From Podaxis mareebaensis (Eukaryota > Basidiomycota > Agaricomycetes > Agaricales > Agaricaceae): a stretch of DNA of 64,000 nucleotides. The notes below the pieces were generated by a model, which was given only the letters and a program-made list of their open reading frames with translations, did not search any database and had not been told where the DNA came from. Position numbers and translations under genes: made by a program. The stretch is taken from NCBI GenBank assembly GCA_018524725.1, contig JAEUWP010000373.1:1-64000 (forward strand), read 5' to 3'. This document shows positions 3,768 through 38,479 of the stretch, one piece after another; positions within the stretch are counted from its first letter, which is position 1, and the number at the start of each line of letters is the position of its first letter.

Positions 3768-6110
3768 ATGTCTCGTCTACCCCTGCCTATTACTAGGTGC
3801 ACACCATCCAATCCATACCCTTGACTTCCTCCTCCTTCTTACCGACCCTTCTCCAACTCTTGCTTCGCAGAACTACAAAGCCTCCTTCAGAGAGCACGCT
3901 CCGAGAGCAACTTTCAAAATCAACTTGACAACTATACCCGCAGTACAGAGAATATAATCCTTATCAATGGCAAATCCTACACAAAACGAGAGCTACTAGG
4001 AGTCTACTACACCCTCCGTTATTCACGAGAAGGCGAAGCAGAACTTCCCAAATCTCCACTAGGTGTTTACCAAGACACCAACATCCTTCTTTGCTACAAG
4101 CTCCAGCACAGCTGGCAGTTTGAGACCCTTCCCACCTTTGTCGAACATCCCACTCTCTTCGCACAATTCGAAGAACGCTTTCAACAAGCCAAGCAGACCC
4201 AGAGTCTATATCTCCATTGGACAGGTTCCCCTCGAGAGATCGACCAGGCTGAAGCACTTCTCAGAGCATTCGAATGCCATTTGAGCCATTGACAGTGCAC
4301 AACTACACCGGTACCCCCTCACTCAACTACTACCTCAACCACCTTCCCTTCAGTCGAGCAGACGGCTATCAGAGAGTCCGAACCCTCGAACCTGCTGCGA
4401 CAGTTCTGAACTATCGAACCACCATCATATCATTCGACTCAACTGTCAACCCCAGAACCAGTCCCAACCAACATCAACCGAACTGCTTCGCACAGGCATA
4501 CCACATCGCTAACTGAGCAGTCAGAATCACAGAATTCTACATTTGCATCTGCGATGAGTGTACAACCCGAGACCCAGATTGATACACCTTCGCCCCTATC
4601 TCTGCACTCGTGGCTAGGACCGGATACACAGCCTTCCTCGAGGTACCCAGAAACGCAAACTTCACACTCAGCACACACTATCCAAACCTCAGATACCTTT
4701 GGAACCAACGAGTCACAATCGTATTCATCCCAAACCCCAATGCCAACCAATACTACACCTCTGAGCCAATCTACTACAGAGACGCAGAGGCCAGAGTTAC
4801 CTATCAATCAGACACACCCACAGAGACCAACTCATCCAACACCGAGAGTACCAGGTACTACATTATCGACCTCGACTCCGTTTAATCAACCATCTCCTCC
4901 CCCTCCTAACCCACCACAAGGACCACCAGCTCGTCAACAGAATGCAGCCATGGCCACACCTAAAGCTCCGAAGATTCAACCATTCGACGGTGAACCTCGC
5001 AACTTCCAAACCTTCCAGGATCAACTCTGACTTGTCTTCGATGACCATCGAGCCGCATTTCAAAATGCACAGAATAACATCGACAACCGAAAGAAAATCC
5101 TTTACATGCTCCAGTACATGACCAAAGGCAATGCTGCTGGATTCCGCAATGCTTTCATGAAAGAAAAATGGAATACCACCAATAACGCCTATGAGTATGG
5201 TACTTGGCACGACTTCAATATCCGACTCGAAGACCATTTCAAACCAAAGATTGAAGCGACGCAAGCTACAGAGAAGCTTCGATGTGCTCGTCTCAACATC
5301 TCCAAAATGGACATCACTGTTTTCAATCAGATGTTTACCTACCTTTTGAGTCAGGCAAACATCACCAATGACAACCATAAAGTCCATCTCTACGTCGACT
5401 CTATTCCTGATTGGGTACAGTGACAACTCTATTTAACGACCCAACCTCCCACTACCTATGCCCAATGGCAAGCCGACGTTGCTAGGATTGTTAACAACTT
5501 CCAACAATATCAGATGCGCAAGACCGGTAGAGGACCCTCTTCACAACTATCTTATTTTAATGACGCCTTCAACAACGCCCCTCGAAACAAGTTTGTCTAC
5601 AAAGAGCGCCAACTCCCACCAGGTGAACCTATGGATATCGATGCACTCGAAGAGTTCTCTTCTGGAGACGAAGAAGAAATCCCCGACTTCTCCTCAGATG
5701 AAGAAGACGATTATGCCAAGCAAGGCATCTCGATGAACGCTATTCTAACCGATTGACAGAAAGACCGAATGAAACATGGAGCATGTATCACCTGTGGAAA
5801 TATGAACCACTGGGCGTGCTCATGCCCCCTTCGTAAGAATCGACAATCTCCGACCAACCAGAGATGATTCCAGAAAGGAAAACGACCTTCCTCTCAGCCA
5901 TCAGCCTCGACCTCCTTCTCTTCCTCGAACCGATCACGTCCCTCTTCTTCCTCTTCTTCTAATCCTTCTCCATCTCATCTCAACACCCTTAACGCAATCA
6001 AGGTTGCTTTCGCCGAAATGACTGCGGAAGATCAGAACAAACTAGCTAACCATGCAATGGCCAAAATTGTCGAAGAAGAACAACAGTCTTTTCTGCAAGG
6101 ACTGGAGTAA
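3768..6110 (+). pseudogene. gag: Gyp-B gag (interrupted by TGA codons)
   Basis: One frame of 780 codons from an ATG at 3768 to TAA at 6108-6110. It is broken only by TGA, at 3822-3824, near 4290 and 4408, at 5028-5030, 5421-5423, 5754-5756 and near 5863. The N-terminal 170 residues include an LHWTGSPREIDQAEALLRAF segment with a weak counterpart in Gyp-A (LRKIKAALQEV). A proline/threonine-rich linker follows, then a retrotransposon gag core (about 4975-5500; PFDGEPRNFQTFQDQL), an acidic stretch, and a CCHC knuckle (CITCGNMNHWACSC, about 5786-5828) with a serine-rich tail. Pol follows in the -1 frame, so expression of pol would need frameshifting. Confidence 0.85.
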
Positions 6111-15195: not shown

Positions 15196-16403
15196 CTAGA
15201 CACAATGCTGGCTAGTTCCTTCTGGTAAAATCCTTTGCTTTCCCTTTTGGATCTTCTTTGTCACTTGACTCTTCTTCAGTGTTATTGAGTCTTGATTTCT
15301 GGTGTTTTTGGAATCATTTCCCATGTTGGTTTCAGGAATAGGAGGCTCAGTTCTTTGATCGTCACTTGTTAAGTGGGCACAATCATGCATAGTGTTTTCT
15401 GGTCTTGCAGATGAAGCATAAGCCTTTGCTTCTGAGTTTGTGGAGTTCTTGGGGTAGGAGGTTGTTGAGTTCTGCTTCAATTCTTGCTTTGACAATTTGA
15501 TTAACTTGTTTACTTGAGTAGTAGTCATCATCAAATGATACTTCTGAAGAGTCTTCTTCTGATGACTGTTCAGATTTGCTATCTGTTCTGTCAATATTAT
15601 TGAGCTCATTCATGAGGATGTTGTCAATGTCTATGGGACTGTATCCTGGGGGGTTACAAGTTGCTTGAGACAGTGTATATACTCAGAAGTTGTAGCTTTT
15701 GCTTGAAATACAAGATTTCAAATATTTCTTGTAATGGGAGTTCAAGTAGTGTCAGTACAAATTTCTTAGGCAATCAGCAAACAATTGAAAGTGTGCCAGT
15801 CCTCCTGTACAGCAGGCTGCTGTGTAGACAGCTTCAGAGTCATTTTCTGCAGGGCTCTGGTTAATGACACCTTTGTAGTAATACAGGTCCAGTCCTTTAA
15901 GGAATAATGCAACTTTGGTCTCATTATGACTAATGCCTGCTGAGGTGCATAGGCTTTTGAACTGGTTAATGTATTCTTCAATTGGTCTTCCATTTTGTTT
16001 GAGGTGTGTGAGGTGGTTGATGCTGACAACAGTGGTAGAGGCTTGTTTAAATGAGTTGTCCAACTCAATGAAGAATTGTGCCAGGGTTTGCAATGTACTG
16101 AAGGTGTTTCTGGTGGTATGGGAGGTGACATATGCTTCCTTCCATGTTGTAGCCAGTCCTTGCATATTGAGGAGGGTGAACATGATCTTGGCTGAGTCAG
16201 AGGAGAGATTGGTCAGTTGGCATGCATAGTAAATTTGTAAATCTCTTTTCCATCATGGGTAGTCAGATGGATCTCCATAGAATGGCTCAGGTTTTTCAAC
16301 TTTTGGGTCTTGTGAGGTCAATATGGTGGAATGTACTGGCTGAGGTGATTGGGTTCTGGAGGTTGAATGGAGATACAGGGTAGTTGGATTGTAGGGGTCT
16401 GGT
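15196..16403 (-). pseudogene. gag: Gyp-A gag, C-terminal part with CCHC knuckle
   Basis: Minus-strand gag core (EPFYGDPSDYP near 16270, capsid-like helices 16183-15752) followed by an acidic region and a CCHC knuckle (CFICKTRKHYA, about 15383-15415, with its last cysteine in the decayed continuation). The N-terminal part of the same gene is at 37371-37700, displaced by Cop-A. Joining 37371 to 16403 gives an uninterrupted gag frame across the insertion point, which confirms the Cop-A boundaries. Confidence 0.85.
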
Positions 16404-16408
16404 CTGTG

Positions 16409-17057
16409 TGATGAGGGGAGAACAGTTGCTGCTACACAAGCATAGTGTCAGTGGAGAGTAAACCAGTTACTCACAATCTGAGGCTGGTTGAATGGGAAGA
16501 TAGCCAGAGAAGTGTGGGAATGGCAAATCTTGAGGAGTACCAGAGAAGATAAGACTGAATTGAAAGTAGTGAGGAATGTTGAGCTTAAGAGAGCTGAGTA
16601 GTCGAGTAGATGAGGAATGTAAAACTCCAGTGAAGAAAGTATGCTACTACATGAAGGTTTAAACACCATAGAGCTACGACACTGGGTCAAGGGTAAAATA
16701 CATGCATGAGTCAGAAAGCATAAGGCATATGTGCATATATCATGAGTAATGTGCATGTAAAAGATAAAATAAGAAAGAACATGACTCTACTGTATGCTAC
16801 AGGAGTCATAAGAAACAATGAAACATTTCTACAAGTTATAAACCATGAGGATATGAGTAATACTAACACAGGCCATATGTCTATGCAATTGTATAAAAGT
16901 ATTATTAGAAACAGATCAATCTAAACATAGCACAAAGCTATGGAAGGTTCCAAAAATATATATGCTCAGTCAATGCAGAGTGTACAAGTTGAGGACACAG
17001 CATGTACTGCTGATGGCAAGTATACATGTAAGCATAATGCTGATTAATTCCTCAACA
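16409..17057 (-). repeat. 3' LTR of Cop-A
   Basis: 649 bp, matching the split 5' LTR. Differences include paired TG/CA sites such as CTGAA against CCAAA and GTGAGG against GCAAGG, which point to lost CpG. The purine-rich AAGTGAGGAGGAG (element orientation, 17058-17070) abuts its start and is the polypurine tract. Confidence 0.94.
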
Positions 17058-17097
17058 CTCCTCCTCACTTGAAATTGTCAAAGCATGAGGTTCAAAA

Positions 17098-18900
17098 GAA
17101 TTCGATGCCTAAAGAAGGCAAAAAGAAGTTGAACTTCTGCATGTTGAGATTCTTTGTTAATAAATCTGCAGGATTTTCTGTTCCTTTAATATTATACAAG
17201 AGGAATTTTTCATCCTCAAGTAAATTGTGGATATAGTGATACTTAACATCTACATGTTTTGAATGTTTTTCAGTAACCAGATTTTTGGCCCAAAATATTG
17301 AACCTCAGTTATCACCAAATAAGTGTGGTTTTTTAATCCATTCAGAATTAATGCTGATTTCAGTAAGCAAATTAATTGTCCATTCAATCTGTCAACTAGC
17401 ATCAGATAAAGCCATGTATTCAGCTTCTGTCAACAATAAGGCAACAGTCTTCTGGTGCCAAGATAGCTATGCAACAGCAGCTCTGGCAATTCTAATAAAG
17501 AAGCCAGTGACCGATTTCCTGGTTTCTGGATCTTGTGCCCAATCCGAATCTGAGAACATGTTGATTCCTTTGTTTGTTTGTCCATCAAAGACAATGGCAT
17601 ATTTAGATGTGCCATGAAAGTATCGCAAAGTATGTAAGCTGGCTTTATAGTATTCCCATGATGGATTCATCATCTGTTGAGATAACTTGACAACTGCAAA
17701 TACAATATTGGGACATGATCCAATCATCAAGTACATCAATGATCCAACCAGTTGTTGGTACTTCTGCCTAAAATTAGCAGATGCCTGATCTTTTGCCATA
17801 GTAAAGATGAAGTCTCTCAGCAATGGAGTAGATTCAGCTTTTTCAACTACATTGAAATGTTCTAACACCTTATCAAGGTAAGGTTGCTGATCAATCATGA
17901 TCAACTGATTATCATGGTCTTGTGTGATATGCATTCCAAGGAATTCAGTTAATTTACCTAGGAATCGACATTCCCATTTTTCCATGAATGCTTCCATCTT
18001 TTGATGAAGAACTTTTGATCCATGTGGTCCTAAGAAAGCTGCATCATCCACATAAAGTAGTGTGGTGATAAGAGATTTCTCTTGTGTATCATAATAGTAA
18101 TAGACTCCAGCATCAAGCGACACTTGTTTGAAGCCTAATTCTTTCATCAAATTGGTTACTTCAAGCCACCATTGTCTGCCAGCTTGTTTGAGACTGTATA
18201 AGGTGCATTTCAAATGCCATACTTTAGTTTCTTGTCCTTTTTAGATGAAACCTTCTGGTTGTCACATATATATCTCTTCCTTAAGATGTCCATAGAGATA
18301 AGCAGTCTTCACATCAAGACCAAACATATCCCAATCTTTGAGGGCAGCTATTACAAATAGCAATTGTGCAGTCTTGTACTGGACAACAGGAGAGAAGAGT
18401 TCATCAAAGTCTATGCCTTTGATTTGTGAGAACCCTTGTGTGACTAATCAAGATCTGAATCTACCATCAGATTTCAGAGTGAATACCCATTGATTACCAA
18501 TCACTTTTCTTCCTTTCAGAAGTTGAACAAGTTCATAGACTTGTCATTTCTTTAATGCATCTATTTCTTCAAGACAAGCTTTATACCACTTATTGCAGAT
18601 CTCTTTAGGGAGTTTCACTAGGTCTTTGAAGACTTTTGGGGTATATGACACATCAATTTTGTTTGTGAAAAGAAAATCAATGAACTGTACTCCTCCTTCT
18701 TTGCATAACTTATTCACATGATGTACCATCATTAGTTCCATCGACATAGAAGTTTGCAAAGAATCAAGTGTGTGTTCATCAGGTGGCATTTCATTTTCAA
18801 CATCAGGAAGTGCTACAGGGCTTCATTTGTGCACTTGCTTTAGTAATGGTTCTCCTTTTAGAGGTATCCATTCGAAGCCTCAATAATTGCATAGTACTTT
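17098..18900 (-). pseudogene. pol: Cop-A reverse transcriptase and RNase H
   Basis: Copia-type RT (RVT_2). TLYSLKQAGRQWW (about 18170-18207) and LLYVDDAAFLG (about 18025-18058) are the diagnostic motifs; an uninterrupted stretch of 248 codons covers 17467-18213. RNase H follows with FSDSDWAQDPETRKSVTGF (about 17505-17560) and LTEAEYMALSDAS near 17420. The C-terminus ends near 17098, next to the polypurine tract. Upstream TGA codons fall at positions where Copia proteins have arginine. Confidence 0.92.
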
Positions 18901-23497: not shown

Positions 23498-23918
23498 TGG
23501 TGAGGGGAGAACAGTTGCTGCTACACAAGCATAGTGTCAGTGGAGAGTAAACCAGTTACTCACAATCCGAGGCTAGTTGAATGGGAAGATAGCCAGAGAA
23601 GTGTGGGAATGGCAAATCTTGAGGAGTACCAGAGAAGATAAGACCAAATTGAAAGTAGCAAGGAATGTTGAGCTTAAGAGAGCTGAGTAGTCGAGTAGAT
23701 GAGGAATGTAAAACTCCAGTGAAGAAAGTATGCTACTATATGAAGGTTTAAATACTGTAGAGCTATGACACTGGGTCAAGGATAAAATACATGCATGAGT
23801 CAGAAAGCATAAGGCATACATGCATATATCATGAGTAATGTGCATGTAAAAGATAAAATAAGAAAGAACATGACTCTACTGTATGCTACAGGAGTCATAA
23901 GAAACAATGAAACATTTC
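23498..23918 (-). repeat. 5' LTR of Cop-A, first segment
   Basis: Matches 16409-16833 and stops abruptly at the KDZ insertion. The remainder of the LTR is at 37138-37365. Confidence 0.93.
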
Positions 23919-24018
23919 CACATAGTCAACCTACAGTGTAGCGAGTGACTCGCTCTAGCGAAGCCATACAACGTAACGAGTGAGACGGGACCAGCGGGCC
24001 CGCTGGCCATACAATGGG
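23919..24018 (+). repeat. Left terminal inverted repeat of the KDZ element
   Basis: About 100 bp, reverse complement of 37031-37130 with six or seven mismatches, four of them CpG transitions. It contains a perfect 16-bp palindrome CCAGCGGGCCCGCTGG (23991-24006) and an interrupted palindrome AGCGAGT-G-ACTCGCT (23940-23954). Such symmetric sites are plausible transposase-binding or hairpin sites. Confidence 0.93.
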
Positions 24019-24187
24019 TTTGGACGGGTAAAACAGGCACCACAGTTCTGGCACCAGGAGCGAGCCGGAAGCTGACCGGCTCTTCACTCTGAGAGGAGAA
24101 GTGGGAAGTTGAGAAAATATATTCACAGATAGGGAGTGACTACGTGCAAAATATTACAGTCAAGAGATTGTGTGCATAATGATTACA

Positions 24188-26585
24188 TTAGTCGGTGAAT
24201 GTCGCATAGTCATCCAGCCCCAGATAGTTGTCAAAGTCAGCTGCAGTGTAAGGCCCCGGTGCCGTAGTTGTGCTGGATGGACCGGCCTCCATGTCGTCGT
24301 CAGAGTCTGGCATGATTAGGAGAATATGGTGAATATCTGTCACATCTGGGACAGACAGACCATCACTAGAATCTGTAGACGTCTGAGTCACATGGGAAGA
24401 AAGTAAAAGTGTATGGTAACAAACCGGCATCCGGCAAATCATCGGTTATGTGGGTGGGGGAGCTTTCTGTGCTGGAGGACATCTCTAAAAGTGCCCTGTG
24501 AACATCTGTAGATAGGCACATGGGCCGTCAGGTGAAAAAAGATGAAAGTAAAATGAGTGAGTGATTTACTGGCATACGGCATATCGGCATGCGAGTTATC
24601 AGGGGAGCTTTCAGCATCGGAGGACATCTCTAAAAGTGCCCTATGGATATCTGCGGCTAGGTGGGGTTGGTGAGGTGAACCTTGTAAAAACAAAGTGAGA
24701 GAAGGTGGGTTACTGGCATTCGGCATATCGGGTTGCGAGTCGGAGTGGGAGCTTTCGTCATCGGATGAGATGGCCAAAAGAGCCTGGTGAACGGCTGCAA
24801 ATAAGAGCGTAAGTTATAAGGAAGGAAGAGAGCAAGCAGAGGGGATAACAAACCGGCAACCGGCGCATCATGAGGTGAGCCGGCATGAGAACCGTCGTCA
24901 TCCGGAGACATATCCACTAAGGCCCGATGAATGCATGCGATGGAAGGGACGGAAACTTCGCTGCCGGAACTGCGAGATTCGGGAGAGGTATCGGCTGCAG
25001 CGTTGATAGCAACAAAGGTACGGGGAGATGGTGGCGAGACACCTGATGAGTCACTTGCAGCACATGTGTGGAGGGCAGCGAGAACAACGGAGGGTGAAGG
25101 TGGCAATGGTTGGGCCGAGCCGGCACTTGCATGGACACTGGCTTGGGCACTGGGAGTGACCGGCATTTGGACTTGGGCATCAGCACCGGCATCAGGAGCA
25201 TTGATTGTGGCCAGATCTGCTTCAGGCAATGACGGAGGAAACCAACCAACAGAAGATGAGGCGTGGTGGCACAGGGGCCTGAGGTGGAAATGGTCTGGGA
25301 CATCAGCAGATGCTAGTTCCGGCAAGGGAGAGGCCACATTGACGGACGAATGGGGCGCCGGTGCCGGGGTGGCTGAGTGAGAAGGTTGGCCAGAGTAGTA
25401 TGTGCCGGTGAAGCGTCCCCAAGGCAGGGGAGCATCGTAGCCGGTGTGTGGAATTTCAAAATTGTTGTCGCTGGCGTGCTGCATCCAGGAGATATCGTCG
25501 GTAGTCAGGTCGACTCCCCAGGTCCATTTGAGGGACGGGTGTGGGGCAACGCGATCTCTCTCAGCTTCAGAATGTTCCCAGACAAACCTAATGAGATCAT
25601 GCTTGGATACCTTGACAGGAGGCTTGGCTGCCTTTCCTTTGCCCTTGGAAGTCCGTGTGTGCCCGGTAGCCGGAGTTGATGCCGAAGGTGGTCCTGCCGG
25701 CATCGATTGTGATGTCAAAGACTCAGGGATGGTGCCCCGTGCCTCATATCCCTGGGCAGAGTTTTCGGCCTCTTTGCTGACGGCCTTCTCATACAACTGG
25801 TTGAAGCCGGATACACGGCGCATCGTTAACTGCCATTTCTCCCGGTGTTCAGCGCCGACGTGCCGGATTTGATGTTGTAACGCCTGGAGGTGCCGAAGGG
25901 CATCCATTGCTACCCCCCGGTAAAGAGTGCACATCTCGCAACTCAGTGGTATATGAGCTGCGGGAACCTCGTCAGTGTGGTCTGTGAGGTCCGGGAGAGG
26001 TGCCGGTTTGCCTTGTTCCTTCACCAGTTGTTGCTGGTGAAACAACAGGCACTCCGGCAACGATGCAAAGTCGAGGAAGAACGAGTCCGGAGGCGACCGC
26101 CTCTTGTTCCACCAGTCCTTTAAGTATTCGGTTATGGTGCTGAGTGGGAAGGGAATAATATCGCCAGCATCCAAGACGTGTTGAAGGTGCCGGTCAAATA
26201 CCAAGCACTGTTCCCGGTGGTTGATGGCCGAGGCAAGAGCGCGGATGACTGCCGGAACCGAGACTACCCGACGACCCCTGACAGCTTCCATTCCGAACCA
26301 GGACATCACAAAATACTGTATTCACATCAACTAACGGGTCATATGATAATTCAGTAATAATGTTGAACTTACATATTCCCTGATAAGGCCTTTTTCAAGC
26401 CATTCCGCCCTTTCGTAATCCCTTGTATTCTGCCTTTGAAGTAAGATGGCACGAAGGCGAGACTCAAAGTACTGGATAAGTAGCCTTGAGTCAAGGTCGG
26501 CCGGTGGTTGTGTTGCAGTGGGTTGGGGAATGGAAGGCATGGGAGCAGGAAGCAAAGATGGATGAGATCGGTTCAGGATATACAT
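24188..26585 (-). CDS. KDZ-element protein A with tandemly duplicated exon
   Basis: Not a recognised family. Spliced model of six exons: 26585-26373, 26315-24854, 24794-24714, 24650-24570, 24505-24425, 24372-24188, giving 700 residues. Introns of 52-63 bp all have GT-AG. Exons 3, 4 and 5 are each exactly 81 bp, separated by phase-1 introns, and encode the same 27-residue module (V/I-HRALLEMSSDxESS...DMPxA). A fourth version ends exon 2 (IHRALVDMSPDDDGS) and a fifth lies in exon 6 (IHHILLIMPDSDDD). The large exon 2 is rich in alanine, proline and serine after an N-terminal region with tryptophans and an LSCEMCTLY segment. The acidic, repeated modules resemble short interaction or activation motifs; that is inference. 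It lies between the left terminal repeat and the transposase, on the same strand. The start could also be at the internal Met 16. Confidence 0.75.
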
Positions 26586-26642
26586 GATGACATAACAAAA
26601 ATCTATATAAGCTTATCCGCAGCATTATCGATGGGTCCAAGG

Positions 26643-29600
26643 TCAAGTGCCAGAACATTGGACTACATATTGGTCATTGGTCTGGGCAAATGCAGTATCA
26701 GCTTTGTGAGCCATGCCTTGCCACATTGCCGATTTATGTGCGGCATAAGCTGCCGGTCCCGGAGATACCACCGACATCTTCCTATTTTCCCAGAGGGACC
26801 GGTTGAAAAGAAAGGAACAAACTACCCACTCCATTTCATATTGGACAAGTGTCACTTCTTCTTCCCAACGCATTTTCCTAGCTCGGGCATGTAAATAATG
26901 GACCCGTTGAACTGTCAGATAGATGAGACATAATGCCGAGGCACGGATAAAGCAGCGATCACCAGACTTACATTCACGGACAGTGCCAGGGGAGGCTGAA
27001 CTGGCACCTGGTCCATGTTGCCATATCCAGGAAAGGCGGATTGTAGTTGAGCCTGGCCGGTTTGGGTCAAGCAATGCTGTGCTAGCTTTGACATCCTCCC
27101 ATGCAAGTGGCCAAAACGCTGCCTGTGTTGCTGGATCCGGCTGAAGACGGAAGAGTGCTGATCGGCACTTGTTGTATGACCGACAATGAAATGAAATCTT
27201 CTTGTTAAGCTTTGCAATCTCCGCACGCGAGCGTGTTTTAAGGCTCTTCCGAGGAGCGACACGGATGACATGGGAATATTGGAATGATTTTTCTGCGATC
27301 AATTGCCGAAGTGCGGAGAGATGCCGGTTAGCCCTTTCCTTGCGCAGGGCAAGTTCAAGCTCTCTATATGTATCTCGCAGAGCCCTGCTCGTTGAGGGCA
27401 TTGGGATTGGGAATGTTGAGGCCGATGATTGACCAGGTGAGAAGGGTATTGCCGGTGCCGGATGCGCCATATCAGCGCTTTCACCATCCGTCTCTTCTTC
27501 AGCATTATTGTCTTCAATGACATCAAGCGGTGGGACCTCCTCCATATTTGGGTCAATGTCATAGGTATGTCCGGGTCGACCAGTGGCTTTGTGTTGCATT
27601 TGCTCCAGTGTAGCAAGCTGCACATGGAGAGCCTCTGACATTTGATGGAGCTCCTCAGATGTAGTTCCCTGAGCTATGTCCTGGAAATGGTCCAAGATAT
27701 ATTGTAATTCGGTTCTGCAATGCCTGAGCACATTTCCTAAATAGATACTAGGGTTGCCACTTACTGTTTCTCTTCAGTATCAAGGACCATCTCAAGCCAC
27801 CGTTCGGCGTCCGTACTCCCCGGGTTCGGGTCTTGCATCACGGGACTGGTAGAGGCTGGCACATTTTCGGCACGTAGTATGTCCATTGCTGCTGGGTTAT
27901 CGAACCGGCACTGCTCGGCTTTGACAATATCCCGTTCCCATTTTGCCCGGTCCTCTGGTCAGCTAGACCCAGCGATTTTTAAGAAATAAGTCTCCAACTC
28001 GAGTGCCATGGCTGATGCGTCCTGATGACGATTGCATAGTACTGTGACTAACATGAAACATAAGTATATTGTCAGCAGTTGGTGCAAAAAAGTTTACACC
28101 TATCGCCAAAAGCTTTTTGAAATTTGAGTCATTTGCATGATCATCAATTGTCTTGGCACGAGTGGCCGGAGTTGCCGTCCGTACAGTGGGGGTGATTGCA
28201 TTGAGATTTGACCACAACATTTCAAGAATCTCCCCAACTGTTACACCCGTATATGGGACGAACGACGTCGCATACTGGAAGAGGCATTCTTCCTTGTGGC
28301 CGTGGACGTGGAACATGCCGATGCCCCTATCAAGCTTTAGCTGATCCGGCAATAAATGCCTGATGCGATCTTGGAGATGAACGAAATACTGGCAGGCAAT
28401 ATCATAGATCAGCATAGCACCTTGTTCTGGGTCCATATTTGTGGTCTTTAGTGCCTGTAAGAGCACCCAGTCAATGTTTTTTTGCTGTTCACCCTTGAAG
28501 AGGTTGGCAATGGCATTCGGCGCAAAACAACCATGCCGGGCACATGCGATGCCCACAATGCCCGTTATATCACATGCCTTGGAGCCATGCATTGTGAGGT
28601 CAACCGCACGGAATTTGGCCTGACAAGGTGCTTTCTGTTTTCAAATATCAATCACAAGAAATCACCCCACCGGCACTACTGCCCCGGCACACAGAGATTG
28701 GCCACGCATGGTAAGACGCTCCACAGCCACCTCCAAAAATTTATGATATTGTTCACGGGTGGAAAACATTCCTGTCCCCTCGGAAAGCCAGATGTCCGAC
28801 GTATATGTCTGCCAAACATGATCTGCTTTCATGTTGCCGTCGGCAACAAAGAAGCGCCGGTACACCCAACTGAAATGAAGTTAAGGCTGGTGAATAATGT
28901 GTATCAAGACTACCCTCACTGTTGGGGATCTTCCTTCCAATTTTCAACCAGGTTGATACCGGGTTGAGGGCATGCCGGACAAAATATTGCAAGCTCACCC
29001 GGCACTTCCAGTGCCTGCATGCCAGATTTATGACCATGGCCGGCCCATTTCTTCTTTTTCAACCACCGCCAAAGTCTTGACATTCGAAGTAGCTCCTGGT
29101 ACAAGTTGGGCGTTTTGGATGGGTCCATTGGGGATGTGAGACGACGAAGCTTCTGGAAGTATTGATAAGCCGATGCTTTACATTCCAAGTTTGAGAGCCG
29201 AAAGTCATCAAGGACGGCCGTTGTAAAGAGTGTACGATAACAGCTGAATGTTGTTGGAACCAATCGGCAATACATGAGGTTGGCATGTACTGCATCGGCA
29301 CCCTGGCATGAGCATGTCACCAATGCCCGGTGATGAATTCCATTAACATGCACAATCTGGACATAGTGGTTGTTGAAGGCATCATATTTTGGGGCTTCCG
29401 ATTGAGGACCTGTTGCCAGGTGTGCTGGGTTGAGATATTCAACAATATCTTCTAGGTCGGCTGCCTCCTCATCTAGGTCTTCCCACCCTGGCTCATTATC
29501 ATTTTCTTCCGTGAAGTCCACTGGATGTTCTTTGTACTGGCGAGCCTGACCTTTCGGCATCTCAGGCGCAATGCCGGTTCTGAGCCATCTCACCAACACT

Positions 29601-30321
29601 CCCTGCTCCTCTTCATCCTTTTCTCGCTGCAGCTGCTCCAAAATCTCAGTCTGGCTAGAGAGACACTTAGCAGCATTCAATCCTGGGTGATGGGGCACCA
29701 AAATGTATGTGCCGACTTCCCACAGTGCTGCCGGACGAAAGTACATGCCGGTCCAACATTCCACATTGTGCAGAGGACTTTCGCGGTGAGTCTCTTGCAT
29801 GCAAAAGCGACACAGCAATTGGGGTAGTGTGCAATCTTTGCATTGCCATATGCCATGCCGGTTGGCCGGACATCGCATACATGATCCATTATTCAGCAAT
29901 GCTTCCCGAGCAAGTATGGATGCCAATAGCTCGTTTGAATGCTGGCAAAACTGCTCCGTCCACATTTGTTGCTGCAATATATGTACGGTTACAGATTTGC
30001 GGAAGGACCATTTAACTGTATATGTACCTTATTTGTGGATGGTTCATCCAGCAAATGCACACTGTCAAACACTGGTGTATCAGCAACCCCTTGTGGTATT
30101 CCCAACGTTTCTTGTTGAGGAGCTGCTTTTGGTGCAGCATTTGGTATTGGCCTCAATGCCATTTCAACACGCTGGGTTGATGGGCCCGCCGGCGTGTTTC
30201 TCACAACTGTATTGTATGTTATTACATCAATTGCTTCATCGTCGTCTTCAACCAACATGTGGCGCTTCTTGGTTCTTTGCCGCTTCTTCGGTGGCATGAC
30301 ATTGCGTGGGGAATCGGCCAT
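26643..30321 (-). pseudogene. KDZ transposase with CxC2 cysteine cluster (one in-frame TGA)
   Basis: Seven-exon model: 30321-30028, 29971-28920, 28869-28671, 28634 (or 28619)-28100, 28047-27765, 27723-26972, 26911-26643, about 1127 residues with GT-AG introns. The N-terminus has a basic nuclear-localisation-like KKRQRTKKRH. A CxC2-type cluster follows (CMRCPANRHGIWQC, CTLPQLLCRFCMQETH, about 29770-29890), ending in ECWTGMYFRP. The KDZ catalytic region includes GIVGIACARHGCF (about 28555), LIYDIACQYF (about 28400), FHVHGHKEECLF (about 28295), EMLWSNLNAITP (about 28200) and KTIDDHANDSNFKK (about 28130). These match the Kyakuja-Dileera-Zisupton transposase pattern. A TGA at 27959-27961 interrupts the spliced frame before PEDRAKWERD. 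It is probably an eroded CGA, so the protein would be truncated. The C-terminal 380 residues form coiled-coil-like helices. Confidence 0.88.
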
Positions 30322-30481
30322 GGTACTGAGCGATGAATAGAGATAAGGGATCCATAAAATAGCCATCTAAAGTTAGGCCTGATGTGCTATATACCACATG
30401 GTTTCTGCCAAATGATACATTGCCTCGTGGTCATCACCCCATGAGTGCACACGTGCATGCCGGCGTCAACGAACCTTCACC

Positions 30482-32593
30482 ATGCCCACAACCAAAGCCA
30501 GAAAGTCCAGAGGCACTAAAGCCAGAGCAGGGTGCCAGTATACACCTGAAGAACATGACACTATCCATGAATTCAAGGAAGAATACCGGTCCCTGGATAC
30601 AGCACTGGCTCGAGCACACTTATTCAAATCAAAGATATTACCGGCAATATTCAATTATTGGGCAAAGAGAGGGAACACAAAGCTCACTGAACAAGAGAAG
30701 AAAAGCCGTGCTAAGGTGAGAAAATACATATTGAATGCATATTCATGAAAACATTGTTAATATCTTTGAAGGAGCTTGGAAAATGGATTGTCAACAATTG
30801 GCGACCATATTCAACTGTGAAGGCCAACAAAAGCACTGTCCGCACTACTTACATTGAGGCAGTTTTCAAGAAACACAGGGAGGCAGTGGAATCGGAACTC
30901 CGGCACATGCTGAATGTTGAAACACTTGATCCGTCGAGCCCGGAATATTTTCGAAACTGCACACAGGCCACAAAATTAGTATATGAGCAGATGGCCGATG
31001 AACAGAAGAAGGCAATCTGGGATGAGGTAGAGTGATTCAAACAGGAGGGAAATGATATCAAGATGCGTCAGAAGTGAGTGCTGGTGATATTGCCATGTGG
31101 GAGAGACTGATGTGCCTATCTCAGATTGGCGAAAAAGAACTCATATAATCGAGTAAAACAATGGTCGAATAAAAGCTGGCTGGAGATGGGAGTCTTCACA
31201 GTTACACTGTGGGGGTATATTCGCCCTGATGGAAAATTCGCCATCGAGGTGTGAGTAGTTGGCAAAAAATAAGTGATATCAGCTATTGACATGTGGTTAG
31301 ATATGAGAACATGGCTGAAAACATGGGTATCAATACGCCAACATTCCTACAGCTACATGATGACTCAATAAAGTGTCTACTCTGCCAACTAGGGGACTAT
31401 ATAAAGGACCTGCAATGGATGAAGGACCAGGCCCCGGCGAGGCTGGTCCCAGATGAAGTGCCGGAGCAACCGGCACATGACAAAATCGGCACAGGTGCTG
31501 ATGGCTTTCCAGTCTTGCTGGACATACCAATCATGGAGATGAAAAAGGAGGAGCTGGAGGACGTGATGCGGCAGTACCTGAATAGCCAATACAGTATGTC
31601 ATCGAGATCTTGTCAAACCTGGCCATGGCTAAGAATGTAGTAATTGCAACCGGCAATTGGCGCAAGCACGTACCTTTTGGCAGCCTGACACGAAATACCG
31701 GGACCTTTGTAGAGCCTCATTATCTCCCGGCAAATTTCACATTCCGTGATCCACGAAACATGAAGAAAGAAGAGATACAGCGTTTTCTGCAACATATTAA
31801 GAACCGGCAAGAACAGGCACCTGGCGACATTTTCCGGTTTCGAGTCTATGAATTGAAACGGGGTCAATACCATCCTGCTATCTATGAGGATGCCCCAGAC
31901 CTGGAGAAAACGAGATCAAAGAAAATGAAAAGCTGAGCGAGGGATAAGCAGAAACAGAAGTGTGATGATGACTGGAGCACCACCGGGTGGGATTCGGGCA
32001 GCAATATCAGTCTGGGAGGAAGTGATCATAGGCCCCTGTGTTCCGAGAACACTCAGGAGTTGCCAGATATTGTCAAAGACTCGTGGGGTTTCACACAAAC
32101 GAGAGAAGTGGGCACAGCCAGTGATTCTGGAGCATCGCCGAGCATGCCAGTGGGAGAAGGGGCATACTGCCGGACAAACGTCGAAGAGGACAGATGTCCA
32201 GTTGTATCATCAAACATGACACCAAAGGATACCACATTTCAAAATACGATAATAATCAACCAGACAACGGCAAACGACTTACTGGGAGTTGGAATATGTC
32301 CCAGAGAACCGATCAATGGACCCAATGATGGAGAGCCACAATATGTTGTGCCGGCACCGGCAATGCCCCTCGTGTCACCGATATCTACGGGGAGAGACAA
32401 TGAAGAAGCGGTGGCCGGTATAGAAATTGACCCCATCTTACTTCAGATTGAAAATGTTGCTGGCAACAGCAAAGCTATCAAAAATCGGCAGCATAAAACA
32501 TCAGATCAGCTCACCAGTGAAGAGGCTCAAAAATTCACAAAGCAGGTTCACGGTCGCAGACAGCACAAACCTAATTGGCATTATAAACCTTGA
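30482..32593 (+). pseudogene. KDZ-element protein B, unknown (two in-frame TGA)
   Basis: Five-exon model: 30482-30715, 30772-31073, 31125-31250, 31301-31593, 31641-32593, all GT-AG and in phase, about 635 residues. Two TGA codons, 31033-31035 and 31934-31936, interrupt it; both fit arginine from CGA. The N-terminus is basic (TKARKSRGTKARAG) followed by an acidic helix. The middle has tryptophan-rich segments (KWIVNNWRPYS, QWSNKSWLEMG) and MADEQKKAIWDEVE, which resembles the third helix of an HMG box, but this match is too weak for a call. The C-terminal half is rich in Pro, Gly and Asp. It diverges from the transposase gene, with 160 bp between the start codons. Confidence 0.65.
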
Positions 32594-32739
32594 GAAAGCA
32601 ACCCTGGCAGTCTCTGAGGTGGGGTGCCAGCCTGGTGACCATCCCTTAACGATAGCCATTGTGGATTTTGTGCTGATGGAAATTTATATGTACCTACACA
32701 CAATATTTACAGTCAAAATATCTTACTACGAATGTCTGT

Positions 32740-35488
32740 CTAAGGATCTGTGTCCATCTGGTCTGATGCTGGCGGTTTTGCCGACAAGCGGGCGAGTGGG
32801 GATGCCGGTGCTGTCCTCAAGCGGCGAGACGACTCAGGCGAGGGGCGATTCAGGAGGGGGACTGAGGGCGACCGTGGCGTAAGCCCCACAACCATGATTG
32901 GGGAATATTGCGGGACGGGAGGCCAGTTGGCCCAGAATGCCGAATCCCTTACCGACTGCGGAGTGACGGGGGTGCCGGCATACGTGAAAGGGTATGCAAC
33001 TCCCAGCAACGATCCGGAAGCAAGAGTGGGAGCCTGTGTCGTGAGGGAAGCAGGGGGTGGGAGTGGCGCAGGAGTGAGGGGGTCAGCACTGATTGTTTCG
33101 GATGCCGGAGGGGCGGTGCCGGCGGGAGCTATGGCTGCCATGGGCATTGTGCCGGTGGGAGGTGTTGTTGCCGGGGGTGATGGGCCGGTCGGACGTTCGG
33201 GTGCCGGGGACGAGGACGCAGGTGCAGGTGCGGGCGCTGACAGTGGCATGCTGGTAGGGGATGCTGGTGAAGGGGGCGATGGGTTGGCAGGAGTTGCGGG
33301 CTTGTGGGGCGAGGGGACTGTGGGAGGTGGCCTAGGTGCCGGATTGAGTGCCGGTTCCGGCGAGTGGGCGGCGACTTCTTGTGGTGGCGGAGAGGGGAGA
33401 CGGGGACCTGGCAACCCAATGAAGACTGCTTCCGCTGACGGGGGCTCATCGATGGGAGGGTGAGTTTGCACCCAGAAGCCATCGTCATCGGCAAGGCCGA
33501 GGTACTCGGCTATCTCGCTCACCTTCTGGGTCAGCCGGTTTACTGCCCCCTCCAACCTTTCCAGATGCTCGGCCGTGTCTCCATGCTGCTGGGATAGCTG
33601 GCTCGAGCACCTGGTGATGATGGTGTCGAGTTGGCCAGTTAACGAGCGCATCTTGCCTTCCATATGCGCAAGCCAGGTTGCTGCATTGCTGTGGAACTCG
33701 TCAAATCGTGCGCTTGTTTGCGTAAGCATGTGGTCCCAAAGATCAGCCTCCTCCTGCACTGAGACAAGGTCAGCAGAATTGGGTAAGTGAAGCGAACATT
33801 GACTTACTTAGTTCGTATCGACTCCTGAGGGAGTTGATACGTGAAGGCCCAGCGACGGGAGATTGTGGGGGCTGGATAATATGAGGGGCTGGTGCCAGAT
33901 CTCTTTGCCTTGCTGGTCCCGGACTTCTTTCTCTTGCCGGTGCCAGTGCCCTGCTTGCTGCACTGTCAGATTTCTTTGCCGGAACCTGGCGCTTGGCGGG
34001 CGGCTCGTCTTCGTCGTCCGTCGTATCAATGTCGGTCCACTTCCTCTTGTTGGAAGGTTCCACTTCCCGCAGGAGTGTGAAGACGTTGTTGGAGGGTCCA
34101 ATGTACCGGCGCCTCCGATCTTGCGTCTCCATGCTGGTCACATTGGAGCACCTCATCTTCAGGCGCCGGCAATCGAAACACGCTCCCCCTCCTATCGCTT
34201 CATGACATTCTCGGTCTGCTTGTTCACAGCGGTCGCACGGTGGATAGTTGAGCCTGCCGCTTTTTTCAGGAAGCCGGCATGGGTACGTCTTGCATGCCGG
34301 TCGCCTCGGCACCTCTGTTTGAGTCTCCTCGCTGGCTGTTGTGTAGGCTTTTTCTTTCCCCTTGCCTTTTGGATGTGCCCTTCCCTTCCCCTTGCCAATT
34401 GCCCTTCCTTTCCCTTTTTTATCCCCCTTGTCTACGCCCGAAGTCGGATTGTAATCGTCCGATCCTGACTCCGACTCAATGACTGGTGGGAACGGCATGA
34501 CTGGCTTTGCTGCCACTCTCCTTCTTTGGCGACTGGGGCCAGCTAATTCTGCGTCTGGCATTTGAGCAGGCGGCTGGTTGGGCCGGTGTCTGGAAGGGGC
34601 CGAATTTTGTCCTGATGCCGCTGGCGCTCTTTGCTCATCAGGACACTGCGGAGGACTAACATTTCCAGGCAGCTCCAACGTGACTCGTGGTAGTCTCGAT
34701 GGAGCTTCCTCAGGCAGCGCAACCCAAGGTACTGCCGATGCAACCACTGTGGCCGGTGCCGGAGTTGTTTGCACCGGGGCCGGCGTCGTCGTGTCGATTT
34801 CCATGGGCTCGGGTGGGGGGACCGGTGTGTGTGTAGGTTCTCCCACGGGTGTCGGCTGGTCAACTCGTATCGATGTAGCTGCTGGCGTGGGTTCGGGGGC
34901 CAGCACCAGCACTGTTGTGGGTTCAGAGGCCGGCACCGGTGCAGATCTTGGTGCCAGTACAGGTTTGGGCCGGGGCACTGGCAATGTGTTTTTGCGCAAA
35001 GGATCTGTAGGGGGTGCCAGCGGAGATGTGGGTGCCAGTGGTCCTCGCCGTGCCACGGATTGTTCTTCCGGCGCAGCGGATGGGGCTTGAGGGACTGTTT
35101 TCTGCTGCTTTCCAATTAGACAAAACTTCTGGAATATATGTAAATGTGACTGACCTTTGACCTGTCATATTTCATCAATGCCTCCCGTTGCCGCTCCAAA
35201 AAGTCGCCACTCTTCCAGTTCTTTTGCCAGTCCATGATCAGGGAACCGACAAACGGCCGGTCCTTGAACGCCGACTTGATGCCGGGATCACTACTCGACC
35301 CATGGGCAAACAGTTCCACCTGTTTCATCTTATAACCAGTGTTTGGAACATATGGATATTAAACTCACCATGTCTTTTTTGTTTGCCTTCAAAACTTTCA
35401 GTATTGTTCCGTCTTCCAAACCCTGCCGGAATTTCGCTTCCAGGGCTTCAAGTTTTTCGATAACTGTGCTCGCGGTAATTGAAGACAT
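32740..35488 (-). CDS. KDZ-element protein C with Zn2Cys6-like cluster
   Basis: Four-exon model: 35488-35369, 35328-35155, 35104-33808, 33758-32740, giving 869 residues; introns of 40, 50 and 49 bp. The N-terminal 95 residues form a compact helical region (IEKLEALEAKF...SLIMDWQKNWKSGDFLERQ). A long proline/alanine/threonine linker follows. Near residue 370 (about 34140-34235) is CDRCEQADREC followed after nine residues by CFDCRRLKMRC. The spacing C-x2-C-x6-C-x9-C-x2-C-x6-C is that of fungal Zn2Cys6 binuclear clusters, flanked by a lysine/glycine-rich basic tract. Exon 4 starts with a coiled coil (about 90 residues) and ends in a proline-rich tail. It is likely a DNA-binding nuclear protein; whether it regulates the element or its host is unknown. 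No internal stops. Confidence 0.72.
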
Positions 35489-35703
35489 TTGTATTTCTTA
35501 GTACTGCCGGTGGGCCTTGTGGTCTGTACGGTATTCGTAAGAGGAAGAGATGGAATTTTTTAACTTCGTTTCCCCGGCAATGTTCAACTTGTCATGTGAT
35601 CTATCGAGCATTTTATTACATAATCACCAATTAGGTCATTTACTGTTATCTTAATATCTGGTGATTATCTCCCAACGCTTTCCACCCATACCCGCCTGCA
35701 AAC

Positions 35704-36670
35704 ATGGACACCCCCACCGCTAATTCTAAAAATCAGACGATTTCAGTGGAAATGCCAACTTCATTCTCATTTTGTACGACTCCACAAGGCGACCGGTACC
35801 TGGTCCCTACTTTCCTGAAGGAGGCAACAGAACATGCATTGCAAGCCGAGGCAATCAAGGGGTCTCTCGATGTTGACAATGCTCCCGGCAGTGTAAGTTC
35901 CTACCCATACATTTTTTGTTCTCTCCCAGATGTCCCACCCATACTCGTCACATCGTGCCAGTGGTTTTCCCCTTGCCAGTGTTCATTCTGAATTGTGTGC
36001 TGTGTTACGTGCCGGTCAAATGCTGGCCTGGGGGCGCTTGGATTCTGGTTGAATCCCGCCTAAGTGGCAGTCGAATCCCGGTTGAGTGACGTTTTGGATG
36101 CCAGTTGAGTGCCAGCTCGAATGCCCAGTTGTGTCCCGGTTTAGTTTCGGATGCTGGTTGAGTGCCGTCCGCGTGCTGGTTTCAAGCCAGTGGCTTTAAT
36201 GCCCTCTTAAAAGTTTTCTTCCTTTACTCCATACTTATTGCCATGCATCCCACATCAGCCACAGTCCCGACAGGCCCTTCCTTTTAATCGAATTAATGCC
36301 GGTAAAATCATGGCACCGGTGGTGCCAGTCTGTGCTTGTTCTTTGTCTGTCATTTAGTCCATAATAACCTGCCTCATTTTAGGGCTTGACAGAGCATGAG
36401 CTCCTTGCTCTCCATGCAGAAATTCAAGCACTGCAACAGCAGTATGGGTTGAGCTACAAGGATGCCTCCCATCGCCTATATCATGCCGAGGCACAGAAGC
36501 TCTGGGCAATCGAGAATGTGGCGAATTCGATCCTAGAGATCCGTCAACAAGCCGATACCTTTGCTGAAGAGGACATCATGAAAAAGATCCTCGACATTGA
36601 CAACCGCACTTCACAGAACACGGGTCAATCCTATGATCTGGAAGCTGATATTGACGTAGACCTTGCATAA
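35704..36670 (+). CDS. KDZ-element protein D, 158 residues
   Basis: Two-exon model: 35704-35892 and 36383-36670, phase 0, donor GTAAGT and acceptor TTTTAG. The 490-bp intron is far longer than others here and contains imperfect repeats built on GCCGG and GTTGAGTG. The protein has an N-terminal beta-like part and an acidic helical C-terminus (EHELLALHAEIQALQQQYG; EEDIMKKILDID). No known domain. It diverges from protein C with about 215 bp between starts. The frame is intact. Confidence 0.6.
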
Positions 36671-36770
36671 ATTGTAAATTGAATTCCATTTATACTATCA
36701 CTTCATTTCACTCGATGTTCAGTGTAATATGAATGCCGGTCTTGCACTGGGTTTCATGCCAGTGTCTGCA

Positions 36771-36930
36771 CCATGTGCCGGCCCCCTGCGCAATGTGCTG
36801 TTGCCTGCGCTATGTGCTGGCCCTCTGTGCAATGTGCTGGCCCTCTGCGCAATGTGCCGGCCCTCTGTGCAATGTGCTGGCCCTCTGTGCAATGTGCCGG
36901 CCCCCTGTGCAATGTGCCAGTGCCTGCATA
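36771..36930. repeat. 20-bp minisatellite at the right end of the KDZ element
   Basis: About seven tandem copies of a unit like CCCTCTGTGCAATGTGCTGG, the last five perfectly spaced at 20 bp (36821-36920). The unit is not a multiple of three and sits downstream of gene D, so it is not coding. Copies differ mainly by CG/TG at one site (GCCGG against GCTGG). Confidence 0.9.
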
Positions 36931-37030
36931 ATCTACTGGTGTAGTGCCGAAGTGGTGATGCCCGTTGAGCTATAATGGTGCAATACTTTCTTATGATCTT
37001 TGCCCATCGCAAATTCCTACTGGGTATATC

Positions 37031-37130
37031 CCCGTTGTATGGCCAGTGGGCCTGCTGGTCCCATCTCACTCGTTACGTTGTATGGCTTCGCTGGAGCGAG
37101 TCACTCGCTACACTGTAGGTTGACTACCTG
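37031..37130 (-). repeat. Right terminal inverted repeat of the KDZ element
   Basis: Reverse complement of 23919-24018. The 16-bp palindrome of the left repeat is here degraded by two CpG transitions. Confidence 0.93.
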
Positions 37131-37137
37131 ACATTTC

Positions 37138-37365
37138 TACAAGTTATAAACCATGAGGATATGAGTAATACTAACACAGGCTATATGTCTATGCAAGTGT
37201 ATAAAAGTATTATTAGAAACAGATCAATCTAAACATAGCACAAAGCTATGGAAGGTTCCAAAAATATATATGCTCAGTCAATGCAGAGTGTACAAGTTGA
37301 GGACACAGCATGTACTGCTGATAGCAAGTATATGCATAAGCATAATGCTGATTAATTCCTCAACA
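37138..37365 (-). repeat. 5' LTR of Cop-A, second segment
   Basis: Continues from the KDZ target site and matches 16834-17057. The Cop-A target duplication CTGTG follows at 37366-37370, then Gyp-A gag. Confidence 0.93.
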
Positions 37366-37370
37366 CTGTG

Positions 37371-38479
37371 TGTGTTGATGAGTCTGTTGAGGATGGCCTC
37401 TCAGTCAGTAGGTGAGGTAGTTCTGATGTACTCCTGTTGTTCAGGGGTGAAGGTGTTGTACCAGGCTTGTTGTACTGGGGTGAGGATGAGCAGATGGAGT
37501 GTTGGTTCTCCTGGGGATTCTGGTTGTTGGTTGCTTCCTGAGTGGTAAGAGTGTTCAGACTCAGTGTTGATGTGCTCATTATCTCCTCTGTGTTGAAGGA
37601 GGGGGTTTGGCTGGGTAGATTGTTCTGGTGTCATAGCTGCTTGGCTAATTTACTCAGAGCACTCTCCAAGAGAAGCTTGTCTGATAAGTCCTGCTGTGGC
37701 ACTGGTGGAAGGCTTGATGGGGGAGGAGTGTCATGAAGGGATTCAGTGCATTGGATGGGTGGGGGTGGTGAATATGGGGCTTGCTCTGGTGAGTGGGTAC
37801 AAAGCCAAAGTGTGGGATCTGAGGACAGGGTCAGTTGGTGTTGTCTTGATTGTTTGGATTTTCAGGATTGTGAGGAGGTAGATTGGTCAGGATCAGGCTT
37901 GGGTCTGAGCTCATTGCTTTCCTTTTCCTGAGAACAGGGTGGCATTGAAGAATCTGTAGTGGGGAAGGTATCATGGGGTGGTTACTGACTAGCTTGGACA
38001 AAATCCTATCTTGATCTCAAGTATCTCTGGGACTTCTTGCAGTGCAGCTTTAATCTTTCTCAAATCCAGTTGTGCCTCTGGATAGTGGACTATTTCTGTA
38101 GTGTGCAAAATCCACTCTTGTGCTAGGGGTCTATCTTTCCTTTCCAGTTACCCTTCAATCAGATACTCCTTCTTTGTACATGGCTTAGAGTTATTCCACA
38201 GCATGGCTATTGTCTCCCACAGCCAATCTAGTGCTTGATGTGGGTGCTTTTCTCCTTTACTTGTTGTCCAAGATAATAGCTGGTTATCCAGGCATTTAAG
38301 GATTGGCTCTGCCCTTTGTTATCAGTCTGGAGTAGGTTGTGGTTGTTTTCCAGGTTTGACAAGGTTCCTACAATCTGTCTAAATTGCTTTAGATGGAGCA
38401 GTTTCCTCTCTCCAATCTGCAGGCCTTTAAGATCTAGGTTGCTATCCTGATCACCATGTTCAGGCATATCTCCTGACAT
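37371..38479 (-). pseudogene. gag: Gyp-A gag N-terminal region
   Basis: Two surviving frames in transcript order: 38479-38228 (MSGDMPEHGDQDSNLDLKGL, 83 codons) and 37634-37401 (77 codons, QQAWYNTFTPEQQEYIRT). Between them are decayed pieces including a segment reminiscent of the Gyp-B gag N-terminus (IVHYPEAQLDLRKIKAAL). The second frame joins at 37371 to 16403 in register. Stops include TGA and some TAG, consistent with an older copy than Gyp-B. Confidence 0.75.

Follow-up and report, generated by a model that had tools for sequence, protein, structure and literature searches.

A Kyakuja-like KDZ transposon of Podaxis mareebaensis with a five-gene set and an element-wide TGCCGG array suggestive of self-recognition

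Kyakuja-lineage KDZ transposons of Agaricomycetes combine a KDZ domain with 7-bp target-site duplications and CA..TG termini; in the available part of the report that describes them, the Laccaria families Kyakuja-1_LB and Kyakuja-2_LB are stated to be without terminal inverted repeats, and a TET dioxygenase route is described for other KDZ elements (Kojima 2025, PMC12730594). The window analysed here, 64,000 nucleotides of Podaxis mareebaensis belonging to contig C202 of an assembly of 36.95 Mb in 429 contigs, contains a KDZ element that possesses the domain (PF18758, 139.4 bits against a cut-off of 26.6), termini defined by a target-site duplication, the 7-bp length of that duplication and the CA..TG ends, and that differs from Kyakuja in having inverted repeats of about 100 bp (95% identity), no TET/JBP gene found, four extra genes (A, B, C and D) beside the transposase gene (T), and an array of the hexamer TGCCGG. 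By its sequence it is a Kyakuja-like DNA transposon of the KDZ superfamily whose normal complement appears to be five genes. Genes like A-D are not mentioned in the available part of PMC12730594, nor KDZ in that of PMC9674265, and among titles and abstract openings, from a body of literature mostly without subscription papers, neither the gene set nor the hexamer was found described. An earlier note, made from the letters of this DNA, had presented A-D as cargo of unknown kind; the TGCCGG array is a new finding beyond that note and turns the unknown cargo into a testable hypothesis of self-recognition. That one of the helper proteins reads TGCCGG and keeps this five-gene KDZ transposon active is a proposal to which we give an even chance, and in which we infer both the identity of the binder and the anti-silencing role.

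The element contains 73 copies of TGCCGG, where dinucleotide frequencies predict 7.7 (z 22). In four flank segments the top-ranking hexamer has a z of about 5, and outside the elements the word occurs 10 times in 88.0 kb (0.11/kb). Being rare in the surroundings and dense in the element, it suggests that the helpers recognise their own DNA and keep it active. Coding exons contain 61 of the sites in the window copy, introns 5 and intergenic DNA 7, with a density of 4-8 per kb in the coding DNA of A, T, B and C and no clustering at the ends. Shuffling of synonymous codons does not account for the coding sites: the counts in A (16 versus 4.0), T (14 versus 3.8), B (11 versus 2.8) and C (19 versus 6.2) are all higher than in any of 500 shuffles, D (1 versus 0.2) falling inside the shuffle range. 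The columns that flank the 73 sites carry at most 0.11 bits, indicating that the word consists of six bases and is not a piece of a longer repeat.

Across nine sequences there are 113 distinct TGCCGG sites, where the sequence of other copies is in most cases TGCCGG or one of two CpG-decay forms, TGCCAG and TGCTGG; better survival of motif CpGs than of other CpGs was sought and gave no consistent effect across copies. A second family of the element, represented by the copy on contig C315, is enriched in two words, TGCCGG (27 versus 4.1) and TGCCGA (33 versus 3.8). Within the 3.5 kb that can be aligned between the families, C315 has TGCCGG at 3 of 11 window sites, TGCTGG at 1 and other sequence at 7; that so few sites are common to both families points to turnover of sites with maintenance of density. 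When the word and its decay forms are counted in pieces of about 3.4 kb around KDZ, all 11 loci of the A-D type show 2.1-3.2 times the expectation (274 versus 102.2; 2.7-fold), and 10 other KDZ loci show 0.67-1.80 times (67 versus 56.1; 1.2-fold), with C415, C225 and C412 at 1.6-1.8; the same forms number 137 versus 31.6 in the whole element, and 32 versus 31.3 and 47 versus 41.0 in the window flanks. TGCCGG itself is found 0-3 times at the other KDZ loci, the 2-3 occurrences at C236, C307 and C168 exceeding the 0.6-1.0 expected. Among the KDZ loci examined, the enrichment is thus restricted to two families. Genome-wide, same-strand TGCCGG pairs are hardly above a reversed-pattern control (92 versus 70; triples, 5 versus 4), and four elements account for 25 of these pairs (window, 12; C227, 8; C70, 3; C315, 2), and two of them, window and C227, for four of the five triples. 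The sole listed same-strand triple outside these elements is at C338:64599-64626.

A search for KDZ listed 28 matches, made up of 7 loci of the window family, 4 of the second family (C315, C423, C144 and C426 at 59 kb) and a further 10 loci that account for 17 matches. The second family keeps the order and orientation A-T-B-C-D of the window at C423, C144 and C315, with only the first exon of D matched at C315 and with interruptions in A at C144 and in B at C423; C426 at 59 kb has T, B, C and D, with A absent among the matches listed, and the left end of C315, CAGGTAGTCAACCTACA, is common with the window family. Aligned amino acid identity to the window copy is 59% for T, 49% for B, 45% for A, 41% for C and 52% for D (56 codons), and third codon positions are the most diverged in all five genes (position 3 versus position 2: T, 0.56 versus 0.22; A, 0.61 versus 0.32; B, 0.62 versus 0.30; C, 0.66 versus 0.39; D, 0.68 versus 0.21 over 56 codons). 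The retained gene order and this codon-position pattern provide, at the level of sequence, the strongest evidence for co-evolution of the five genes as working parts. Naive ratios of nonsynonymous to synonymous substitution (dN/dS) of 0.37-0.48 for the five genes were rejected as a sign of selection within the family, since a null that keeps the mutation classes averages 0.45-0.59; the between-family codon-position test is relied upon instead.

The tblastn lists for A-D comprise the best-scoring candidates and give lower bounds. Outside the two families they contain a fragment with C and D matches only (C154) and two short stray matches (29 amino acids at C55 and 41 amino acids at C328), so that A-D were not found as ordinary host genes, the occurrence that the earlier note had named as fatal to a fixed gene set in a defined mobile unit; that idea is instead strengthened by the copies and by a second family with the same order at 41-59% amino acid identity. 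Similarly, the Leucocoprinus B protein, when queried back against the genome, matches only at loci of the two families. T aligns with five of the other KDZ loci (C236, C225, C72, C412 and C23) at 24-35% identity, five (C415, C307, C168, C283 and C103) have no tblastn match to T at 1e-5, and none of the ten has an A-D match among the matches listed.

In other species, relatives were looked for at the level of single proteins, with A and B as queries. The first search with B yielded 2 proteins and a profile search 8, from Leucocoprinus birnbaumii (2), Phlegmacium glaucopus (3) and Pholiota conissans (1), which are Agaricales of three families, and from two further sources; A has four relatives, all metagenomic, among the best 7993 candidates by shared words that were scored. 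No near-identical database protein was found for A or B.

The limits of the element are exact (Table 1). The left and right terminal inverted repeats are 95% identical over 96 bp; at the left junction ...aaACATTTC is followed by the element start CACATAGTCAACC, and at the right junction the element end GGTTGACTACCTG is followed by ACATTTCtac. The element is inserted in one long terminal repeat (LTR) of a retroelement, as observed on comparing window positions 16000-17500 and 23500-37500. The empty site announced for the sister LTR is present there, at a position slightly different from the predicted 16828-16840 (ACATTTC lies at about 16823-16829): the joined flanks (781 bases) align to it over 648 bases, gap-free and at 96.8% identity, which bounds the age of the insertion. 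Termini, target duplication and limits thus agree with what the earlier note had read from the letters, as do the five multi-exon genes, their order and their strands. Its description of the element as complete holds for structure and fails for function, since in-frame TGA codons interrupt two genes of the window copy, T once (27959-27961) and B twice (31033-31035 and 31934-31936).

Table 1. Features of the KDZ element in the window; gene models were derived by hand with GT..AG introns and without transcripts
Feature	Position	Strand	Description
KDZ element	23919-37130		~13.2 kb; bounded by terminal inverted repeats and target duplication
Left target-site duplication	23912..23918	none	ACATTTC
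Left terminal inverted repeat	23919..24018	+	CA terminus
Gene A	24188..26585	-	700 aa, 6 exons (26373-26585, 24854-26315, 24714-24794, 24570-24650, 24425-24505, 24188-24372)
TGCCGG hexamers	24424..36900	both (44 +, 29 -)	73 sites
Gene T	26643..30321	-	KDZ transposase with CxC2 cysteine cluster; 7 exons
Gene B	30482..32593	+	635 codons, 5 exons, last 31641-32593
Gene C	32740..35488	-	874 aa, 4 exons
Gene D	35704..36670	+	158 aa, 2 exons (35704-35892, 36383-36670)
Tandem repeat	36765..36918	+	period 20/40/60, with three TGCCGG sites
Right terminal inverted repeat	37031..37130	-	TG terminus
Right target-site duplication	37131..37137	no strand	ACATTTC

The left 182 bases of the element find 17 matches in the genome, window included, and parts of the element lie on ten further contigs: C70 carries the element over its full length; C227 retains both termini and all five genes, with insertions of about 2.7 kb and about 8.0 kb; C426 has the whole gene set, with one insertion of about 6.9 kb and the last ~25 bp missing; C243, C230, C196 and C129 have a left part only, and C71, C32 and C366 a right part only, these seven being cut by contig ends, truncated or deleted. 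C200 has a short right end and C347 an end of 33 bp. The ~8.0-kb insertion of C227 lies within the right terminal repeat (element position ~13112) and the ~2.7-kb insertion at ~4090. In an internally deleted copy (C129:20354-21924), element positions 2-1221 are joined to 3865-4208, possibly a non-autonomous derivative. All three both-ended copies have 7-bp duplications (window, acatttc; C227, tcgtgtg; C70, cttgcaa), and paired ends that enclose T without A-D, the other finding that would have told against a fixed set, were not encountered among the copies in this genome, the window, C70, C227 and C426 carrying the full set.

Judged by the window gene models, with copy splice sites unchecked and some copies partial, freedom from stops and frameshifts is seen in 4 of 8 covered copies of A, 0 of 8 of T, 0 of 5 of B, 1 of 6 of C (the window) and 6 of 6 of D, and each of the 8 copies of T that were read has in-frame stops; by these sequences, autonomy is shown for no copy in the genome. 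The in-frame stops among copies are mostly TGA, the changes in other copies at window CpG sites are mostly CpG to TpG or CpA, and CpG decay is strong in some copies. The ratio of observed to expected CpG in the KDZ pieces is 0.00-0.20 at C426 (both), C196, C415 and C412 and 0.61-0.67 at C227 and the window. Because transposon CpGs are so heavily mutated in this host, they are probably methylated. A Tet_JBP profile gave no match to the open reading frames of the element and the proteins scanned, consistent with the earlier note, which had recognised no TET/JBP gene; in the genome it lists 7 places on seven contigs, none of which is shared with a KDZ match.

The protein features suggest which of the genes might encode a reader. 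T matches CxC2 (61.2 bits; cut-off 27) in addition to the KDZ domain, and the parts of A-D that were scanned against Pfam match no family above cut-off, as their description as proteins without recognisable family implied. The Zn2Cys6-like cluster previously noticed in C stands as a spacing and falls short as a profile match: the cysteines at amino acids 393-422 (C-x2-C-x6-C-x8-C-x2-C-x6-C) have what we take to be the spacing of the Zn2Cys6 family, which four of the five copies tested show (in two of them a stop interrupts the cluster; the fifth has a deletion there) and which is readable in the second family too, but C scores 12.4 bits with Pfam Zn_clus, below the cut-off of 21. Zn2Cys6 proteins are, as a class, fungal transcription factors; C resembles these in cysteine spacing and differs in its score. 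A coiled coil, judged by eye, is likely downstream of the cluster. The first part of the last exon of B encodes a domain with a predicted GTF2I-like fold, as modelled on a Leucocoprinus relative (P0001): in a structural search with this model the ten best rows are all GTF2I repeats and the eleventh is NRF1 with DNA. B may thereby resemble DNA-binding proteins with GTF2I repeats or NRF1 in predicted fold, and differs from GTF2I repeat proteins in a sequence match far below the family cut-off (12.9 bits in 1 of 4 pieces with Pfam GTF2I), in the single such domain seen and in its location in a fungal transposon. A weak match to PF11001 (YDR124W-like helical bundle; E 0.035-0.12, two different B proteins) was also observed in the last exon of B (31641-31936). 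Sequence searches of the PDB with B and A profiles gave nothing convincing, a viral-fold search with B gave no match at E 0.001, and scans of viral contigs for B and A found no relative. The C-terminal 152 amino acids of A are acidic (30 D+E versus 2 K+R) and include short repeated exons (HRALLEMSSDxESS); YTAADF in A is similar to FTxASF near the ends of 2 of its 4 metagenomic relatives (P0005 and P0006). A structure model of A (mean predicted local distance difference test, pLDDT, 34.8) was set aside.

A mechanism can be proposed in which T would be the cut-and-paste transposase and A-D its constant companions, not chance cargo; the DNA of the element, genes included, has accumulated a CpG-containing word on both strands (TGCCGG, or TGCCGA and TGCCGG in the second family); one companion, either C (Zn2Cys6-type cluster, probable coiled coil) or B (predicted GTF2I-like domain), would bind the word and coat the element; and A, whose acidic repeated tail is activator-like, would act together with the binder to keep the element genes open. 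The bound helper may counter silencing by CpG methylation, as VANC does for plant VANDALs, sequence-specific anti-silencing replacing the TET dioxygenase of other KDZ elements. Such a fungal barcode-and-reader system, in which an element-wide CpG hexamer and its encoded readers would let only the element's own copies escape CpG methylation, is advanced tentatively and is somewhat less probable than not.

The best-surviving alternative, though unlikely, is that A-D are transposition co-factors and that TGCCGG is a site for T or for a co-factor by which the element is compacted or paired. KDZ loci that lack A-D have KDZ domains and little or no enrichment of the motif, making a co-factor plausible as the reader, and an array of sites 12 kb wide could help to join distant ends. 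In En/Spm or Ac, subterminal repeats are sites for the elements' own proteins, but such arrays stay near the ends, and here the sites are not concentrated at the ends and pervade the coding DNA of A, T, B and C at 4-8 per kb. Rather improbable, by our estimate, is that A-D form only a transcription activator of the element's own genes (a Zn2Cys6 reader with acidic A) in which methylation is not involved; the acidic repeated tail of A, the similarity of its end in two distant relatives and the class to which Zn2Cys6 proteins belong would suit such an activator, yet its sites would be expected in promoters and 61 of 73 are in coding exons. It is highly improbable that mutation or duplication produced the hexamer incidentally and that nothing reads it, for although 3 of the 73 sites are within a tandem repeat and CpGs of the motif do not consistently outlast other CpGs, the sites have no common flanks (<=0.11 bits), occur in several reading frames and on both strands, outnumber synonymous shuffles in 4 of 5 genes and are little enriched at other KDZ loci, and CpG decay removes the word and does not create it.

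Recognition of the hexamer by an encoded helper that keeps the element active would constitute a compact, testable system of self versus non-self recognition in fungi, in a KDZ lineage marked by a constant set of five genes, no TET dioxygenase found and one sharply defined word filling the element. If true, it would add a second example of sequence-specific anti-silencing to that of VANC in plants, would give this lineage another way than the TET route of related KDZ elements, and might provide a tool by which demethylation or activation is targeted with a hexamer. The available parts of the reports on VANDAL21 and VANC of Arabidopsis permit the following comparison. VANC sites are non-coding and often in tandem-repeat DNA, whereas the sites here are mostly coding (61 of 73) and have no common flanks; in both cases a DNA transposon has extra genes and an enriched short word (Hosaka 2017, PMC5735166), the variable regions of VANC contain tandem peptide repeats as does A, and in both, sister families have a shifted word, as in the C- and T-type VANC motifs (Sasaki 2023, PMC10398659) and, here, in TGCCGG versus TGCCGA with TGCCGG.
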